DNA from: Branchiostoma floridae
Taxonomy: Eukaryota; Chordata; Leptocardii; Amphioxiformes; Branchiostomatidae
NCBI RefSeq assembly: GCF_000003815.2
Contig: NC_049980.1
Coordinates: 10,058,560-10,122,559, forward strand
Length of the DNA: 64,000 bases
Direction of reading: 5' to 3'
Shown here: positions 1 to 63,411 of the stretch, piece by piece
How positions within the stretch are numbered: position 1 is the stretch's first letter
Layout: every line of letters starts with the position of its first letter
Made by a program: the position numbers and the translations under genes
Notes under the pieces: generated by a model
Database searches by the model: none
The model's input: the letters and a program-made list of their open reading frames with translations, nothing else
Told to the model about the DNA's origin: nothing

Positions 1-599
1 ACCTTGGCCATACCTTGGCCATACTTTGGCCATACCTTGGCCATACCTTGGCCATACCTTAGCCATACCTTTGCCATACCTTGGTCATTCCTTCGTCATA
101 CCTTGGTTCATACCTTGGCCATACCTTAGTCATGCCTTGGTTATACCTTGGGCATACCTTGGTCATACATTGGTCATACCTTGGCCATACCTTGGTCATA
201 CCTTGGCCATACCTTGGTCATTCCTTGGCCAAATCTTGGCCATACCGGTCGCGGAAGAACTGGAGTGTGCACCGTTACCCATAGTCATAGCCATACCTTT
301 AATAGCCATACCTTGGCCATGACTTGGTCATACCTTGGTCATACCTTGGTCATACCTTGGTCATACCTTGGCCATACCTTGTTCATACCTTGGTCATACC
401 TTGGTCATACCTTGGTCATACCTTGGTCATACCTTGGTCATACCTTATTCATACCTTGGTCATACCTTCGCTATACCTTGGCCATACCTTATTCATACCT
501 TGGTCATACCTTCGTTATACCTTGGTCATACCTTGGTCATACCTTGGTCATACCTTGGCCATACCTTGGCCATACCTTGGTCATACTTTGGTCATACCT

Positions 600-1250
600 T
601 GGTCATACTTTGGTCATACCTTGGCCATACCTTGGTCATACCTTGGCCATACCTTGGCCAAACCTTAGTCATACCTTGGTCATACCTTGGCCATACCTTG
701 GCCATTCCTTGGGCATACCTTGGTTCATACCTTGGCCTTACCTAGGCCATACCTTGGCCATACCTTGGCCATACCTTGGCCATACCTTGGTCATACCTTG
801 GTCATACCTTGGCCATACCTTGGCCATACCTTGGTCATACCTTGGTCATACCTTGGCCATACCTTGGTCATAGATTTGTCATACCTTGGTCATACCTTGG
901 CCATACCTAAGTAATACCTTGGCCATACCTTGGTCATACCTTGGCCATACCTTGGTCATACCTTGGTCATACCCTGGTAATACCTTGATCATACCTTGGC
1001 CATACCTTGGTCATACCTTGGCCATAGCTTTGTCATACCTTGGCCAAATCCTGGCCATACCGGTCGCGGAAGAACTGGGGTGTGCATCGTTACCCATAGT
1101 CATAGCCATACCTTTAATAGCGATACCTTGGACATGACTTGGTCATACCTTGGTCATACATTGGTCATACCTTGGCCATACCTTGTTTATGCCTTGATCA
1201 TACCTTGGTCATACCTTGGCCATACCTTGGTCATACCTTGGTCATACCTT
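600..1250 (+). repeat. Higher-order duplication within the minisatellite (copy 1)
   Basis: This block matches about 2251-2901 at a constant offset of 1651 bp. The matching landmarks include the rare variants: the AGATTTGTC unit, the CTAAGTAAT unit, the TTTATGCC unit and the CGGTCGCGG interruption. A shorter part, about 750-1060, also matches about 1290-1600 at an offset of 539 bp. The array therefore grew by unequal exchange of multi-unit blocks, not only by single-unit slippage. Confidence 0.85.
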
Positions 1251-2250
1251 GGTCATACCTTGGTCATACCTTATTCATACCTAGGCCATACCTTGGCCAT
1301 ACCTTGGCCATACCTTGGCCATACCTTGGTCATACCTTGGTCATACCTTGGCCATACCTTGGCCATACCTTGGTCATACCTTGGTCATACCTTGGCCATA
1401 CCTTGGTCATAGATTTGTCATACCTTGGTCATACCTTGGCCATACCTAAGTAATACCTTGGCCATACCTTGGTCATACCTTGGCCATACCTTGGTCATAC
1501 CTTGGTCATACCCTGGTCATACCTTGGTCATACCTTGGCCATACCTTGGTCATACCTTGGCCATACCTTTGTCATACCTTGGCCAAATCCTGGCCATACC
1601 GTGCGCGTAACAAGTGCGGTGCGTGTCGATACCCAGAGTCATAGCCATACCTTTCATAGCCATACCTTGGTCATGACTTGGTCATACCTTGGTCATACCT
1701 TGGTCATACCTTGGCCATACCTTGGTCATACCTTGGACATACCTTGGTCATACCTTGGTCATACCTTGGTCATACCTTGGTCATACCTTGGTCATACCTT
1801 GGGCATACCTTGGTCATTACTTGGCCATACCTTGGGTATACCTTGGTCATACCTTGGCCATACCTTGGACATACCTTGGTCATACCTTGGGCATACCTTG
1901 GCCATACCATGGTCATACCTTGGTCATACCTTGGTCATACCTTGGCCATACCTTAGTCATACCTTGGCCATACCTTGGCCATACCTTGGTCATACCTTGG
2001 TCATACCTTGGTCACACCTTGGTCATACCTTGGTAATACCTTGGCCATACCTTGGTCATACCTTGGTCATACCTTGGTCATACCTTGGTCATACCTTGGT
2101 CATACCTTGGCCATACCTAAGTCATACCTTGGCCATACCTTGGCATACCTTACCTTACCTTTGCCATACCTTGGTCATTCCTTCGTCAGACCTTGTTTTC
2201 ATACCTTGGCCATACCTTAGTCATGCCTTGGTTATACCTTGGGCATACCT

Positions 2251-2901
2251 TGGTCATACTTTGGTCATACCTTGGCCATACCTTGGTCATACCTTGGCCA
2301 TACCTTGGCCAAACCTTAGTCATACCTTGGTCATACCTTGGCCATACCTTGGCCATTCCTTGGGCATACCTTGGTTCATACCTTGGCCATACCTAGGCCA
2401 TACCTTGGCCATACCTTGGCCATACCTTGGCCATACCTTGGTCATACCTTGGTCATACCTTGGCCATACCTTGGCCATACCTTGGTCATACCTTGGTCAT
2501 ACCTTGGCCATACCTTGGTCATAGATTTGTCATACCTTGGTCATACCTTGGCCATACCTAAGTAATACCTTGGCCATACCTTGGTCATACCTTGGCCATA
2601 CCTTGGTCATACCTTGGTCATACCCTGGTAATACCTTGATCATACCTTGGCCATACCTTGGTCATACCTTGGCCATAGCTTTGTCATACCTTGGCCAAAT
2701 CCTGGCCATACCGGTCGCGGAAGAACTGGGGTGTGCATCGTTACCCATAGTCATAGCCATACCTTTAATAGCGATACCTTGGCCATGACTTGGTCATACC
2801 TTGGTCATACATTGGTCATACCTTGGCCATACCTTGTTTATGCCTTGGTCATACCTTGGTCATACCTTGGCCATACCTTGGTCATACCTTGGTCATACCT
2901 T
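2251..2901 (+). repeat. Higher-order duplication within the minisatellite (copy 2)
   Basis: This is the second copy of the block at about 600-1250, offset by 1651 bp, with the same order of variant units and the same interruption near 2714. Point differences are few, such as GATCAT against GGTCAT near 1197 and 2848, so the duplication looks recent. Confidence 0.85.
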
Positions 2902-3784
2902 GGTCATACCTTGGTCATACCTTATTCATTACTTGGCCATACCTTCGCTATACCTTGGTCATACCCTGGCCATACCTTGGTCATACCTTGGTCATACCTT
3001 GGCCATACCTTGGCCATACCTTGGTCATACCTTGGTCATACCTTGGTCATACCTTGGTCATACCTTGGTCATACCTTGGTCATACCTTGGTCATACCTTT
3101 GATAGCCATACCTTGGTCATACCTTGGTCATACCTTGGTCATACCTTGGTCATACCTTGGTCATACCTTGGTCATACCTTTGATAGCCATACCTTGGTCA
3201 TACCTTGGCCATACCTTGGTCATACCTTGGTCATACCTTGGTCATACCTTTAATAGCCATACCTTGGTCATACCTTGGTCATACCTTGGTCATACCTTGG
3301 TCATACCTTCGCCATACCTTGGTCATACCTTGGTCATACTTTGGTCATACCTTGGTCATACTTTCGCCATACCTTGGCCATACCTTGGTCATACCTTGGT
3401 CATACCTTGGTCGTACCTTGTCCATACCTTGGCCATACCTTGGCCATACCTTGACCATACCTTGGTCATACCTTGGTCATACCTTGGCCATACCTTGGTC
3501 ATACCTTGGCCATACCTTGGTCATACGTTGGCCAAATCTTGGCCATACCGGTCGCGGAAGAACTGGGGTGTGCACCATTACCCATAGTCATAGCCATACC
3601 TTTAATAGCCAGTTACTGTTACTGTAATCGACTGTTACTGTAATCGACATTGATAATGCTAATTCAAGGACGTCATATACATCTAATAGATATAACTGTT
3701 ATCACTGCATAACCTCACACGTATATATTTGCATTATGGAGTGAAACGTACGCCAGCTGTAGCTAGCTATAGTCTGTAGTGTTG

Positions 3785-6900: not shown

Positions 6901-8145
6901 CGACATCTGGGCAAACGGCGGCCCGCCTTTCGTGTGGAAAAAACCTTACTCGGAGAAACCGTGCCTGATAGATTACCGACTTTTCTTGGAAAGGTAAGCC
7001 AGTCTGCTCCCGTGCACACGTAAAAGGAAAATTCTTCCATCGCAGTCGTGACTATGGGTTATGACTTACGTCGTTCTCTTAACATTGAATTGCCTTGTGG
7101 AAAAAGCCAGAATGTGACCAACATATTGGATGGCAGGGTTTTTTCTGGCTTCCTGAAAACTACCCAGTGCCACTAACAGAATTGTTTCGCGACGACGAAG
7201 CCTGGGTCTGCCTTCAAGGGTCGGATGAGGTTATCACCACGATACACCCACACTAATCTGACGTCAAATGGCTATCACTTTGCAAGCAAGACGACGTGCT
7301 CAGCGTAATACCATCCTTCCCACTCCAATCCGAATTCGGAAATCGGCATGGCTTTAGATAACGTTTGGAAAAAAGACAGCTGTGAACGTTGCTTCTCAGA
7401 ATCCCACCAACGCAGAACCAACAGCTGAGCTACAACACAACACAACGTAAGTTGTGAAGGGGAGGATAGACAGTGTCTCTAGGGCGCAGTATAGCACAGA
7501 CATTGTACCCGGTGAGTACTCTTTTTTAATCCGTGTATATGCCATATTTACATGTTCTACAAAGTCAGGGGAAGTCAAGTCGTTATAGCCGCAAAAATCA
7601 GACCCATATAGTGCTTTCAGTATCTCTGTCACGTTTGTAACCCGGCATTATCAATTCTGCATTCGCGTTTTGCCATATACGCAGACAGATGGTGACGCTA
7701 TCAGACTGTGAATGAAGATTTCCGAAACGGGTAATTGTGAAATCCTTCGGAAGCTGAAGGTTTAAGGTCAAGACATATCTGCATTGCCGTAGAGTTGATT
7801 GCTGTCACATGTCTGGAAATGCCAGCTGATTGGACCAACTGAAGAGGTGATTTGGAGTTAGCTAATCGACCTTGCTTGCCGAAGTATGAATAATTTGGCT
7901 TTGGGTTTGAATTCTTACTAAGACTATATGCAGGCTACATACCTCGCAGTGTTGAAAAGGAAATTCGCGTGTCTGTTAATATATTTAGGTACCGCTAGTT
8001 CTTGTGATTCAATGTGACATATATGCGATTGTAATTGCTTCCTTTATTACATAGTATCGTTGTAATATCGCGTTATGTGACATTCGTGTTGAATCGGATC
8101 CCCACATTTACACATAGGCTCTGGGTAGCAGAATAGGACTCCAAT
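3926..8145. other. Intergenic stretch, no supported gene
   Basis: Only short isolated open frames occur here. The longest, at 4733-5134 on the minus strand (133 codons), has no recognisable domain and no convincing splice sites around it. A GC-richer patch at about 6790-6993 ends in a strong donor (AAAG followed by GTAAGC) and could be an upstream exon of the gene at 8146, but this is weak. Confidence 0.5.
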
Positions 8146-8871
8146 ATGATGGGACGCGGCGCTCTAGCGGGGGCAAGACTCGCCAGCGAGAGGAAGAAAA
8201 GAACCTTGAAACTACAGAAGCAAGGGACAAAGAAGCTTCGTCGCATTACACCCAAACCAGCTAAGATCATGGTGATCAAGGGCAGGATCAACCTGCTCTC
8301 CCCGTACACCATCTGTGTGCTCCTGGGCTTCTGTGTCCTTACCGTCGGGGTGGTGATGTGCATGTTTGCGTACGAGTACGTGGAAGTCGCCGTGCGTAAC
8401 AACAACAACTCTTCCAGCACCGCGGAGATGGACAGAGACCGGTCATTCCTTATAAACCGAGCCTTACTGCGGGACTTTCGGCTCATCGGCCCGCTGATTG
8501 TGGGGTTAGGAGTGTTTACAATGCTGTGTGGGATGACTGCTTTACTAGAGGACAGGGATGGGAGAACGAAAAGAATAATCATCCGCGAACCTACGGACGA
8601 AGACTTCGAAAGGGATGTAGGACCAGTCTCGCCGACGTCATCTTCTAAAGCATACTACCCGGATTATACAAGAATAGACAGACTCCCAAAATACAGACTT
8701 CCGCGGTTTACAGTGGGCTCGTGTCCGAACCTGCGGTACCAGCCCGACTCGCCCGCCCGTCTTAACCCGCTACGGGGGTACATGAAGTCCATGCCGTCCC
8801 CCGTGCCGGTACGGGACTTGTACAGGTTTCAGCCTCTGCGATGTATAGGGGAGGCATATGATCTGACTTAA
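8146..8871 (+). CDS. TMEM200-like two-pass membrane protein
   Basis: This is a single-exon open frame of 241 residues. A basic N-terminal segment (about residues 1-45, rich in K and R) leads into 'KGRINLLSPYT', then membrane span 1 (about 52-76), a polar loop with an Asn run and a Ser run (about 84-95), and membrane span 2 (about 112-132). The segment 'LLEDRDGRTK' follows, then a polar tail containing 'SCPNLRYQ'. Vertebrate TMEM200A/B/C proteins share the layout: a G-K-[IL]-R-L-x-S-P-S segment before the first span, a 'LGPxxMGIG' second span, an 'ENRDKETK' exit and an intronless coding region. The tail is shorter than in vertebrate paralogues. The first of two tandem ATGs is taken as the start. 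No enzymatic role is known for this family. Confidence 0.75.
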   Translation: MMGRGALAGARLASERKKRTLKLQKQGTKKLRRITPKPAKIMVIKGRINLLSPYTICVLLGFCVLTVGVVMCMFAYEYVEVAVRNNNNSSSTAEMDRDRSFLINRALLRDFRLIGPLIVGLGVFTMLCGMTALLEDRDGRTKRIIIREPTDEDFERDVGPVSPTSSSKAYYPDYTRIDRLPKYRLPRFTVGSCPNLRYQPDSPARLNPLRGYMKSMPSPVPVRDLYRFQPLRCIGEAYDLT

Positions 8872-23979: not shown

Positions 23980-48526
<24,547 letters not shown>

Positions 48527-53455: not shown

Positions 53456-53483
53456 ACATGGCGGACACCTGACGTCATGTGAC
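53456..53483. promoter_or_regulatory. Candidate AGTPBP1 distal promoter sites
   Basis: A YY1-like AACATGGCGG (about 53456-53465), a perfect CRE palindrome TGACGTCA (53470-53477) and a GTCATGTGAC E-box-type site (53474-53483) lie within 30 bp. They sit about 470 bp upstream of the alternative first exon. The assignment is based on motif clustering and position only. Confidence 0.4.
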
Positions 53484-56573: not shown

Positions 56574-56630
56574 TCCGACATCGCAACGCTGGTATTCAAT
56601 ATCATGAGTGACTTTTTGTCATGATATTGT

Positions 56631-57134
56631 CCGGATATGGATCTATCCCCAACTGAACCGCTGGTGTGGAGTGTTTTGACCGAACTTTGTTCAAGATATT
56701 GTCCGGATATGGACATATCCCAAACTGCACCGCTGGGGTGGAATGTTTTGACTGAACTTTGTTCAAGATATTGTCCGGATATGGACCTATCTCAAACTGC
56801 ACCGCTGGGGTGGAGTGTTTTGACTGAACTTTGTTCAAGATATTGTCCGGATATGGACCTATCCCAAACTGCACCGCTGGGGTGGAGTGTTTTGACTGAA
56901 CTTTGTTCAAGATATTGTCCGGATATGGACCTATCCCAAACTGCACCGCTGGGGTGGAGTGTTTTGACTGAACTTTGTTCAAGATATTATCCGGATATGA
57001 ACCTATCCCAAACTGCACCGCTGGGGTGGAGTGTTTTGACTGAACTTTGTTCAAGATATTATCCGGATATGGACCAATCCCAAACTGCACCGCTGGGGTG
57101 GAGTGTTTTGAGTGAATGTTGTTCTTGATATTGT
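56631..57134. repeat. 72-bp tandem repeat inside the CACTA-like element
   Basis: Seven copies start at each CCGGATATGR (56631, 56703, 56775, 56847, 56919, 56991 and 57063). The 72-bp period is exactly 24 codons, and one frame on each strand is free of stops: plus reads MDLSQTAPLGWSVL-type repeats, minus reads NKVQSKHSTPAVQF-type repeats. There are few differences between copies. Translation on either strand is not supported by other evidence. Confidence 0.92.
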
Positions 57135-58429
57135 CCGGATATGCAAAAAAACAATGATACTTGACTCATAATTGTTACCATCGCAAAGATTGTTTTCTGT
57201 GTCATTTGATTGTAAATGTCGATGTCAGTATATTTGCACATGTATATGGTAGTTTAAGCTTCAATTACCAGAAAATTAAAGAGTAAATATACATCGACAT
57301 CGGGCATACTCGTTGTAAAATAAAAACACATAAACAGAAGCAAAAACGTTAATGACGTGTATTTGACAAGATATGAAACCTTTTTAGGATATCCAACAAA
57401 GCAATCTCAGATTCATGTATGACAAGAAAAGTAATTTGTTAACCATTAAGTTGTCCGAAAACTGATCTCTGGAATGTTTCTGTTTTGGACATCTGTCGTA
57501 AATGGAACGGAATATGAATTCGGAGGGAGCGAAAATTTCAGCAAAAAATTGCAGTCTTATTTGTTCAGATGCGCAATAAAACAATCACCAATTCACAATT
57601 CGCGTATAGAATACCTTTATCAGTAACGGTCAGAATATGCTAACTCCGAATCTGTCCTAAAATCCATGGAATATCTGTCGCGGATATGTCTCGTAAATGG
57701 AAAGAAGAGAAAATAGTATGAATTCGAAAACATGAAACGTCCCTGACACGTATTCGGAAGAACGGGAAATTCTATCCATCCGGGCATGTGCTGAAACATT
57801 TCATGACTCATGATATTCTGAGACATAATGAATCATGTCATCTGACAATGGCCCAGAAAAAATGCACATCATGCTTCGTGCAAACTCCTAATTTGTCCGG
57901 GTATTCCTTATCGAAATATATGGACCTTGGATATGCAAAGAATGTAAAACATATCACGTATTCGGAGGCAAGAAACGTCAATGGCGCGTATCTTGAAAAA
58001 CAGGAAAGTCTTATTTGTCCGGATACATAACAAGACAATTCCTGACTCATGATATTTCCAGATATGGGAAATATTGAACATCGTGCCCGGACACAGTCCG
58101 AATATTTAGCATGTCCAAAAATATGTCAACTCCGACTTTGTCCGGAAATCACACCCTTTCGCACAGTGATATGTACGGTTGGGGGCAAGGCGTCAAGATA
58201 TGCACAAGGCAAGATGCAGTTTCAAATCCCCACCCTACATGCCCTAGTTTTTGTACGTCTAGATTCATCCCACCGTACGACCCTCTGGGCGTTTGGTCCG
58301 GATTTTTTTGCCCATATACCTTATTCTCTCTTCGAAGCCCGCCCAGAGATCATGTTGGATATGGTACAATTGAGCAGCGGCCAGAGGACCCATTATTCCG
58401 GATAAAGTCACCCACCAACTACGTACTTT

Positions 58430-59215
58430 GATGGTCGATTTCGTGGCATGATGAACACAAGAATATAATAACACCTCTATGTTCACTAGCGGCCTTACTC
58501 GTATTTTCTCACCTCTTTCCCATAACATTGATTTTTGGGGGCGTTGCTTGCAATTGGCCACTACAATTGATGTTCATATTCATATTTTATCATTCACCCC
58601 CCGAAATTTGAGTTGTGTCCCTCGTTTGTGATTGAGACCAAGAACTTATTGAACGCCATCACACCATTCCCTGATGTCTGCTATGAAACTGTCGTCCAGG
58701 ACACTAGAAGTGGACTCACAAGACTTTTTACCGCAGCATACGCAAGGGCTTCTTAACCAGTAACATACATATATAGTAGCCCAGAAAAACATGAATCATA
58801 ACACAATAGATGATATTTCATATTTAATACTCTCACATGACTGCACACAATAAGTATTCTCAACAATACAAATGCAAATACAAATATTTGTTCTCAATAA
58901 TAAATACAAATGCAAGTACAGAAAAGACTGCCAGCAGTCTTTTCGTCTCTTTAGCACATGTGCAAATAATCGGACCATTCTTCGTTACTAATATGCTTAC
59001 TATTATCAAACTAAAGATTTACGATAATGACTGAAGGTCTTTGTTCATATTTACCTGAGAGGAATGTCAATTGTAGCATGATTCACAAATAAGCTCTGCG
59101 AAATAATCTAATAAATTGCCACAAACAGTGCCTACACTATTTCATCTTGTTCTGATACAGAACTCATAAAGAACACGTCAAGATCACCATCCAGCTACGT
59201 ACAGACAATTCAGTA
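58430..59215. other. Intergenic stretch, nothing supported
   Basis: No exon, domain or strong repeat is seen, apart from a short AATACAAATGC repetition near 58865-58920. Confidence 0.5.
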
Positions 59216-59221
59216 AGGCTA

Positions 59222-59394
59222 ACGTTACATTTCCAAACCAGGGTCCGGCCGGCCAGTTTGTGGAAACGGAAAATAGAAATCTACACGTAAAAATATGCAA
59301 AAATAATGCCCACGACTTTTCTCTTTACCCCTTTTTCTTATACATTTTGCTGCTGAAAGCTACCCGGTCGGGCCCGGTTTGGAAATGTGACGTA
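59222..59394. mobile_element. Short TIR element (MITE-like)
   Basis: Inverted ends ACGTYACATTTCCAAACC followed by GGG and CCGRCCGG blocks pair over about 30 bp, enclosing about 110 bp of A/T-rich sequence. No target duplication can be assigned confidently because ACGT itself is palindromic. There is no coding capacity. Confidence 0.65.
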
Positions 59395-59711
59395 AGCTTA
59401 AAAGCGAGATGACTGAGTAACAATCGTCTGAGTCTGACTAACATTGCAGCGTTTCTGTTTCCATGTTGAAAAACACAATATAATATACAGAAATGTTTGT
59501 CGATTGTTTAGTAACTGGCCAAAACTGCCATTGTAACCCACATGAATTGATAAAGCAACAAGAACTTTACCCAATCAATTCATAGTGGGAAGTCGAATGA
59601 TATATATGAAGAGATGGGAAAAATATCCGATACTCACGGCACGAGTGACACTTCAAATGATCTGAGAAATGATAGCCTACCGGTCCTAAATTTCAGGACC
59701 ACAAAGGAAAT

Positions 59712-60600
59712 CTACGGCATTGCCTCTAGAGTGTTCCAGTCGATAAAGTCCATGTTCTTAGCGCGACTCTTGGCCTGCCCGTGGTTTTTCTTCCAGAATC
59801 CGTACGCCTTGACCTTCCTCAGGAAGTACGCCATGCTGCACCAGCGGCTCCTGCACTTGGGGTCCCGCTTGGTTTGCACGACCACAGGATGGCCCCCGTT
59901 GTTGTAACCCTCGGATGGCGTCCGGGCTTTTCTCCTCGCCTGCTGACCGGTTTTCCCTCCAGTCGACCGAAAGCGATCGTACTGTCCGGACCCGTTACTG
60001 CCATGGCGGCGGCGGCAGTGAGACTTGTACCTCCCGATAAGCGAGCGTCGCACTCTGCGATGTCGGGCGGAGGCACTGAAGTCGTTTTCCGAGAGGTCGA
60101 AGCTGCTCTCGTCGTTCTTTGCCTCATCCACGAGGTCGATGTTGGAATCTACCTCGGTAGACCCGGAGCCGTAGTCTGGAAATGTCGTCTCAGCACTGCT
60201 GGCTTCCCACAGCGGAGCGTCTTCATACAGCAGATCGTAGATTTTGACTTTTGCTGCAGGAAATAAAAAAGAGAAATAGGTTAAATACATATGTACCTTA
60301 TGTATCCGCAATGTACAGGAGAGGAACTCGAGGCTAAGACAGAAAGAACTGTTCAGAAATTAAGAAATTGTACAGCTTTTTTGTTTTTCACTTGTTCTCC
60401 GAAGACGTCGGGTGCAGCCTTACGGGTAAGGTCTGGGTTATGTCTAGCTATCAATCCGTTACAAAACTTTATGACCGCTTAAAAATTAGGGATACTTGAA
60501 AGTCAGCATTTCACCATTGCATACCTGGTCTGCTGTTGACATCCTTCCACAAAGTGACAAGGAACACCAGAAAAAGTGGCAAGGTTGCGGTAGCGCGCAT
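59712..60600 (-). CDS. Small secreted, furin-site propeptide of unknown family
   Basis: Two exons (60525-60600 and 59712-60253, GT-AG intron, phase 1) encode 205 residues. Residues 1-23 form a signal peptide (hydrophobic core LPLFLVFLVTLW, likely cut near VNS-RP). Residues 36-83 are acidic. A furin-type RRVRR (91-95) would release a strongly basic C-terminal part of 110 residues with three cysteines (105, 159, 164), including CRSRWCSMAYFLRKVKAYGFW. The odd cysteine count could allow a disulphide dimer; that is inference. A TATA box and CRE lie just upstream. I do not recognise the family. It looks like a growth-factor or peptide-hormone precursor by layout only; other basic secreted proteins are possible. 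Confidence 0.75.
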
Positions 60601-60698
60601 CTTTCTCGAGTCTGGCCTCTCCGTCTCGAGCTCACTGGAGTCGTCTGCTTAGTCGTTCTCAGCCTCAGCTTCTGTTGGCAAGTGGAGAAACCGTTCCA

Positions 60699-60706
60699 TT
60701 TTTATA
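60699..60706 (-). promoter_or_regulatory. TATA box of the secreted-propeptide gene
   Basis: TATAAAAA on the minus strand lies about 100 bp upstream of the ATG at 60600, which places transcription start near 60675 and a 5' leader of about 75 nt. Confidence 0.7.
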
Positions 60707-60766
60707 CCCCAAATCCCGGCTTCTTCAAAAGATTCCCAGAAGAAGCAGCCATGATGACGCTTTCGG

Positions 60767-60774
60767 TGACGTCA
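60767..60774. promoter_or_regulatory. CRE palindrome upstream of the secreted-propeptide gene
   Basis: A perfect TGACGTCA inside GGTGACGTCACC lies about 60 bp upstream of the TATA box. The position is typical of cAMP-responsive, CREB-bound promoters; function is inferred from motif and spacing. Confidence 0.5.
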
Positions 60775-62843: not shown

Positions 62844-63411
62844 TACATTTTTGAAGATCCAGTCCTCGAGTACGGTGATGTCCTCCTTGTAGGCTGTAGC
62901 AAGGAACACTACTGGGAACGCGCAATGCAGAGAGTCCAACAGCGGGCTCTACGGATCATCAGCCGAGCGGGCAGGCGCGATGTGCCCCACCTACCCACCC
63001 TCCAATCGCGACGCGAGGATGCAGCTGTCAAACTTTTCACACAAATGTTGGATGTTGACCATCCCCTACACGACATGGTTCCACCTTCCAGATCAACTGC
63101 CACGGGACGATCACTGAGAAACAAAAACACTTTCTCCATCCCCCCAGCTAGAACTAAAAGACTTCAGAACTCTTTCCTGCACACAGCCATCAAGCTGTAC
63201 AACAAGACTGTAGACACGTAGGTAGTAACAATGGCTACTTAACGTCGGAGATGTTGTTTACTACTTTAGTATATTGTTTCTTATCATATGTGTATATATA
63301 CGGTTTTTATGTTGTAAATTTCAACGCTATTCAGGCTGCTATTATGTCTGCTATGTTGAAATCAATAAAGGATGATGATGAGGATGATGATGAGGATGAT
63401 GATGAAGATGA
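62844..63411 (+). mobile_element. 3' fragment of a non-LTR retrotransposon (LINE)
   Basis: The frame 62844-63221 (126 codons) reads PVLEYGDVLLVGC, then RVQQRALRIISRAG, LPTLQSRREDAAVKLF, HDMVPPSR, GRSLRNKNTF and NSFLHTAIKLYNK. This is the conserved end of LINE ORF2, after the reverse transcriptase core. The fragment is 5'-truncated by a stop at 62841. About 150 bp after its TAG stop lies a (GATGATGAG)n tract at about 63369-63411, resembling the simple-repeat tails of CR1/L2-type LINEs. It is a dead copy. Confidence 0.82.

Follow-up and report, generated by a model that had tools for sequence, protein, structure and literature searches.

A gene with two exons on the minus strand of Branchiostoma floridae DNA, located within positions 59712-60774 of the 64,000-nucleotide stretch that was analysed (the window), is very likely real as judged from its sequence and may encode a secreted, stimulus-regulated peptide precursor of the prohormone type, a reading to which we assign a probability of about 0.5. 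The term prohormone-type precursor refers here to a kind of protein and not to a homologous family. Weighed against a growth factor, an antimicrobial peptide and a matrix protein, hormone-like signalling appears to be the most likely single reading. The joined coding parts of the gene specify 205 residues, and the gene model consists of the following features:

60600-60525, minus strand: coding part of exon 1, starting with the ATG at 60600 and encoding the signal peptide (residues 1-23), residues 24-25 and one further base.
60524-60254, minus strand: intron of 271 nt, GT-AG, phase 1, with the boundaries CAG/GTATGC ... TTTATTTCCTGCAG/C.
60253-59712, minus strand: coding part of exon 2, ending in a TAG stop codon at 59714-59712.
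58823-58828, minus strand: ATTAAA, a weak candidate poly(A) signal and the sole AATAAA or ATTAAA downstream to 56001.

The start codon at 60600 is found in the context GAGAAAGATGC, and a pyrimidine-rich tract precedes the intron acceptor (on the 60254 side). When 16 acceptors were tried in combination with the CAG/GTATGC donor, the acceptor at 60253 yielded 205 amino acids and one located 6 nt further in yielded 203, while the remaining 14 gave at most 66. The frame of exon 2 comprises 215 codons from stop to stop, a length that was not reached when the last 14 kb of the window were dinucleotide-shuffled 100 times (maximum 201) and that was reached once in 500 shuffles of its own 660-base stretch. 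The G+C content at codon positions 1, 2 and 3 of this frame is 0.525, 0.480 and 0.726. When 5000 stretches of equal length were taken at random from the window, leaving aside the minisatellite in the first 3.6 kb, 12 showed a contrast as strong, and all 12 overlap exon 2 itself. A bias in the same direction occurs in the presumably TMEM200-like frame of the same window (0.520, 0.451 and 0.643). By symmetry, counts of RNY codons do not differ between the two strands and are uninformative for the exon 2 frame. An antisense frame of 178 codons over exon 2 uses the same bases, is the mirror of a coding frame with G/C-ending codons and has no match in Pfam. Downstream of the gene, no AATAAA or ATTAAA other than the listed one occurs on the minus strand within 3.7 kb, and the 3' processing signal of the gene is weak. 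The two-exon model proposed in the initial annotation is thus borne out, as far as the sequence can tell, by a GT-AG intron in phase 1, a frame of 205 amino acids and a composition typical of coding DNA.

The translated sequence also contains all parts of the layout described earlier, i.e., a signal peptide, an acidic pro-region, the RRVRR motif and a basic part with three cysteines:

Residues 1-23, minus strand: predicted signal peptide, MRATATLPLFLVFLVTLWKDVNS/RPA, with an acceptable cleavage site after Ser23.
60045-60251, minus strand: acidic pro-region, residues 27-95, with RHRRVRR at its C-terminus.
60045-60059, minus strand: RRVRR, predicted furin-type cleavage site, residues 91-95, recognised as a motif.
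59715-60044, minus strand: basic C-terminal part, residues 96-205, with Cys105, Cys159 and Cys164.
59865-59870, minus strand: KR, possible second dibasic site, residues 154-155, recognised as a motif.
59715-59864, minus strand: C-terminal 50 residues, DPKCRSRWCSMAYFLRKVKAYGFWKKNHGQAKSRAKNMDFIDWNTLEAMP, with a possible Cys159-Cys164 ring followed by a helix.

The hydropathy of the signal peptide peaks at 2.5 over 12 residues, and the ATG of this gene is one of only 16 among the 814 ATGs of the window with at least 25 open codons that reach both this peak and the level of the cleavage site. No second membrane-like stretch was found, the best mean hydropathy over 19 residues being 0.05 from residue 24 onwards as opposed to 1.52 in the signal peptide. 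The sequence hence predicts a cleavable signal peptide and no other membrane span, as expected of a secreted prohormone-type precursor, and basic convertase sites between pro-region and product are present as motifs at residues 91-95 and 154-155. The pro-region, counted from residue 26 to 95, holds 16 D/E versus 8 K/R, five of the latter inside RHRRVRR, and residues 96-205 hold 25 K/R and 6 D/E, which corresponds to a net charge of about +19 over 110 residues. Gly, Ser, Arg and Gln abound in the middle of this C-terminal part, which from its composition appears to be disordered and contains further dibasic sites. The last 50 residues, which follow the KR, comprise the C-x4-C spacing, an aromatic stretch and the motif DFIDW. 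A Gly-dibasic amidation signal is absent from the 205-residue protein, which ends in EAMP directly before the stop codon.

Upstream of the start codon, two promoter elements were identified:

60700-60706, minus strand: TATA box TATAAAA, located 106 bases before the ATG.
60767-60774, minus strand: full CRE TGACGTCA, part of the 12-base palindrome GGTGACGTCACC and located about 170 bases before the ATG.

A palindrome at this position was also returned by a further scan. The distance to the TATA box downstream is 68 bases from the start of the CRE and 64 bases from its centre, and half-CREs occur at 60755 and 60856. The window as a whole contains four full CREs and 42 TATA-like words, and about 0.48 same-strand pairs at a distance of 20-200 bases are expected in it by chance, with one being observed. 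Thus, TATA box and CRE are both present as had been claimed, but the pair by itself does not exceed chance for the whole window and is noteworthy solely through its position directly upstream of the ATG. In mouse neurons, activity is reported to induce a handful of genes in which a proximal CRE is followed by a TATA box within 300 bp, and not to induce genes without one (PMC5740062); the spacing observed here falls within this 300-bp rule. We infer by analogy that the rule may carry over to this gene. Another full CRE is located at 53470-53477 of the window, with a half site right behind it and ACATGGCGG shortly ahead, and could be the TATA-less promoter of a further gene.

As to its family, the protein appears assignable to none among Pfam, NCBIfam and PDB, which agrees with the initial annotation. 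Searches of Pfam with the full-length protein, residues 96-205, the last 50 residues, a 21-residue core and the pro-region gave no credible family (matches were listed up to E 10, with the HMMER filters removing most of those above about 0.1). The Pfam search with residues 96-205 revealed no clear match to a known family. It returned the lone row of the Pfam searches, MerB, at E 0.081 and 13.3 bits, which is below the cut-off of 27 and was taken as chance. Six of six known short hormones of 32-52 residues, among them ELABELA and three calcitonin-family peptides, were recognised by Pfam; being well-known members, these controls demonstrate that short hormones are visible to the search and do not gauge its reach to remote relatives. 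NCBIfam, whose families are bacterial and archaeal, was matched neither by the full-length protein nor by the last 50 residues. By sequence, PDB returned four polyketide-synthase chains for the full length (E 0.14-1.1), which were taken as chance, and no match for the last 50 residues. Pattern searches yielded two stretches in a viral collection and 58 in microbial contigs, none of which was confirmed by tblastn; as both collections are viral or microbial, this outcome does not bear on animal orthology. Within the window no paralogue was detected, as only three weak matches (E 4.3-8.3) occurred apart from the gene itself, and scanning the window for Rfam families and tRNAs gave no hit. In a partial search of the literature on amphioxus precursors and on the synteny of the neighbours, a description of the protein was not met, by which we do not claim its absence from print, and three sequence words of the protein led to one irrelevant match.

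The protein was further compared with 12 hormone sequences by a shuffle test, without and with the cysteines held in place. The fraction of shuffles that scored as good was 0.017 and 0.016 for GLP-2, 0.024 and 0.026 for glucagon, 0.031 and 0.064 for adrenomedullin, 0.056 and 0.196 for amylin, and at least 0.15 for the other eight. All 12 likenesses were dropped, as none survives correction for 12 tries. In the case of endothelin, where the distance from Cys to Trp is also 21 residues, two cysteines here stand against four, and 33-38% of shuffles were as good.

With calcitonin, CGRP and adrenomedullin the protein shares a pair of cysteines, Cys159-x4-Cys164, at a spacing that would give a six-residue N-terminal ring if the bond is made, and a dibasic site ahead; a helix may follow. 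The amphioxus peptides Bf-CTFP1-3 of this family are described as similar to CGRP and adrenomedullin with respect to the length of the ring and the N-terminal extension, and C-terminal amidation in this family is conserved in vertebrates and occurs as Pro-amide in the Bf-CTFPs (PMC6283891). The protein described here differs in that the family's C-terminal amidation signal is absent and in that PF00214 (Calc_CGRP_IAPP) finds no match, whereas the adrenomedullin, amylin and salmon calcitonin controls all match. It may work like a calcitonin-family peptide, yet we do not file it as one, because the likeness is not significant for 12 tries and the amidation signal is missing.

GLP-2 carries the sequence DFINW, to which the C-terminal DFIDW of the protein is similar. 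In contrast to the glucagon/secretin family, however, PF00123 (Hormone_2) has no match here while the GLP-2 control is matched at 5.2e-15, and by eye there is no cleavage site where such a peptide would begin. Peptides of this family are not known to have a C-x4-C ring. Signal peptide, pro-region, basic furin-type site and basic mature part are arranged as in neurotrophins and other furin-cut growth factors with a cystine knot. The neurotrophin knot is built from six cysteines, and a knot of this type was excluded by the total of three found here, in addition to the lack of a Pfam match. ELABELA/Toddler (APELA) is likewise an Arg-rich peptide with C-x4-C, but 50-68% of shuffles were as good, and the Pfam model Toddler does not match the protein although it matches ELABELA itself.

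An AlphaFold2 model of the last 50 residues from the single sequence predicted a single helix spanning residues 7-47, at a mean pLDDT of 66, the best block of ten residues (pLDDT 82) lying over MAYFLRKVKA. The corresponding model of exon 2 alone was poor (mean pLDDT 48.8). Structure models from single sequences tend towards helices, and the hydrophobic moment of the putative helix was ordinary, being reached by 44% of shuffles for a 15-residue stretch and by 29% for a 13-residue stretch. For both reasons the helix is suggestive at most. As regards an amphipathic helix behind the ring, as in the calcitonin family, the observations are a helix in a low-confidence model and a moment not above that of shuffles. 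In a fold search, a lone low-confidence helix would match anything.

In 20 reading frames of the window, including the one antisense to this gene, Pfam recognised two families above the cut-offs, and eight weaker rows of neighbouring frames below the cut-off were set aside:

8137-8868, plus strand: DUF2371 reading frame (Pfam, E 9.6e-16), which we take to be TMEM200-like.
27566-30235, minus strand: exons of a cytosolic carboxypeptidase (M14, CCP type), from PDB and Pfam.

The carboxypeptidase is supported by a PDB match at 27566-28102 (E 2.6e-05) and a Pfam N-terminal domain at 29900-30235 (E 3.2e-07); a match at 33078-33512 was too weak (E 0.094) to be accepted as a further part. Both families are uninformative on function. 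The segment at 62844-63218, without a match in Pfam, is presumably a fragment similar to the C-terminus of a non-LTR reverse transcriptase, with a wording as in lancelet elements. Repetitive DNA was observed at three places. An 11-base minisatellite of about 318 copies (ACCTTGGTCAT) occupies positions 1-3549 and lacks stop codons for long distances in each of the three plus-strand frames, with repeats of the type (S/P)YLGHTLVIPW. A 72-base tandem repeat of 7.4 copies with 94% matches is located at 56615-57143 and is open on both strands (187 aa on the minus and 167 aa on the plus strand), as allowed by a repeat length divisible by three. Just past the coding 3' end of the gene, at 59218-59397, lies a MITE-like stretch of 180 bases with terminal inverted repeats of 25 nt (88%).

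If the gene encodes a prohormone-type precursor, its transcription would be driven by CREB/CRTC upon a cAMP or calcium stimulus, and the precursor would enter the secretory pathway. The pro-region would hold the basic part in solution up to its release by a furin-like protease behind RRVRR, and a second cut after KR154-155 would possibly free a peptide of 50 residues. In this peptide, Cys159 and Cys164 would close a six-residue ring ahead of the helix, with Cys105 being left free or joining two chains, and the released peptide would act on a cell-surface receptor. The propeptide layout stressed in the initial annotation is present; the proposed signalling role is what we infer from that layout, which would equally suit the precursor of a cationic antimicrobial or a matrix protein that is secreted. 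What counts against the prohormone reading is the lack of a relative in the searches described above, the ordinary hydrophobic moment of the putative helix, the poor model of exon 2, the missing amidation signal, the weak 3' processing signal and a CRE-TATA pair that by itself lies within chance for the window.

Residues 96-205 may instead stay intact and act as a longer growth factor or heparin-binding ligand, in which the odd Cys105 would link two chains into a disulfide-bonded dimer and the basic stretch would bind heparan sulphate. The odd number of cysteines, the strong net positive charge and a pro-region terminating in a furin-type site are consistent with this idea, but the disordered-looking middle part with its further dibasic sites and the lack of a match to a cystine-knot or any other growth-factor model in Pfam argue against it, and we consider it rather unlikely.

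An acidic pro-region combined with a basic mature part is known in several antimicrobial precursors. The charge split between the two parts would thus also suit a cationic antimicrobial precursor, in which the acidity of the pro-region would offset the strongly basic mature part and the latter, once cut free by furin, would disrupt the membranes of microbes. However, the protein has three cysteines only, the amphipathicity of the helix segment is ordinary, the linker rich in glycine, serine and arginine is long, no antimicrobial family of Pfam was matched, and CRE and TATA, the promoter elements searched for, are both present upstream, which together make such a role unlikely. An improbable alternative is a lineage-restricted, fast-evolving secreted protein without signalling role, such as a component of matrix or mucus; it would be in line with the lack of a credible family match in Pfam, NCBIfam and PDB and with the low complexity of the basic middle, but the compact C-terminal core of cysteines and aromatic residues and the clean propeptide layout exceed the needs of such a protein, for which TATA and CRE would also be atypical. 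That the locus is no gene, with the open frame as well as the splice and promoter words having arisen by chance, is very improbable. In its favour, the frame length is reached by one local shuffle in 500 and a CRE-TATA pair alone is expected about 0.48 times in the window. Against it, the frame with its codon-phase contrast, the signal peptide, the intron and the promoter elements all occur together, correctly ordered and spaced, and a real gene is therefore very likely.

The interest of the gene as a candidate peptide precursor hinges on its conservation in other deuterostomes. Without conservation, it would join the secreted proteins that are restricted to a single lineage. In the lineage beside the vertebrates, most neuropeptide systems of bilaterians are reported to be present (PMC5818035). 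If the precursor is conserved and processed, it would provide a new ligand in this lineage, which could be paired with an orphan receptor. It is a doubtful further step, yet conceivable, that the gene is the founding member of an undescribed family of chordate peptide hormones, in which the C-terminal 50 residues of a stimulus-induced precursor would serve as a free-acid ligand of ring plus helix, perhaps for a class B receptor.
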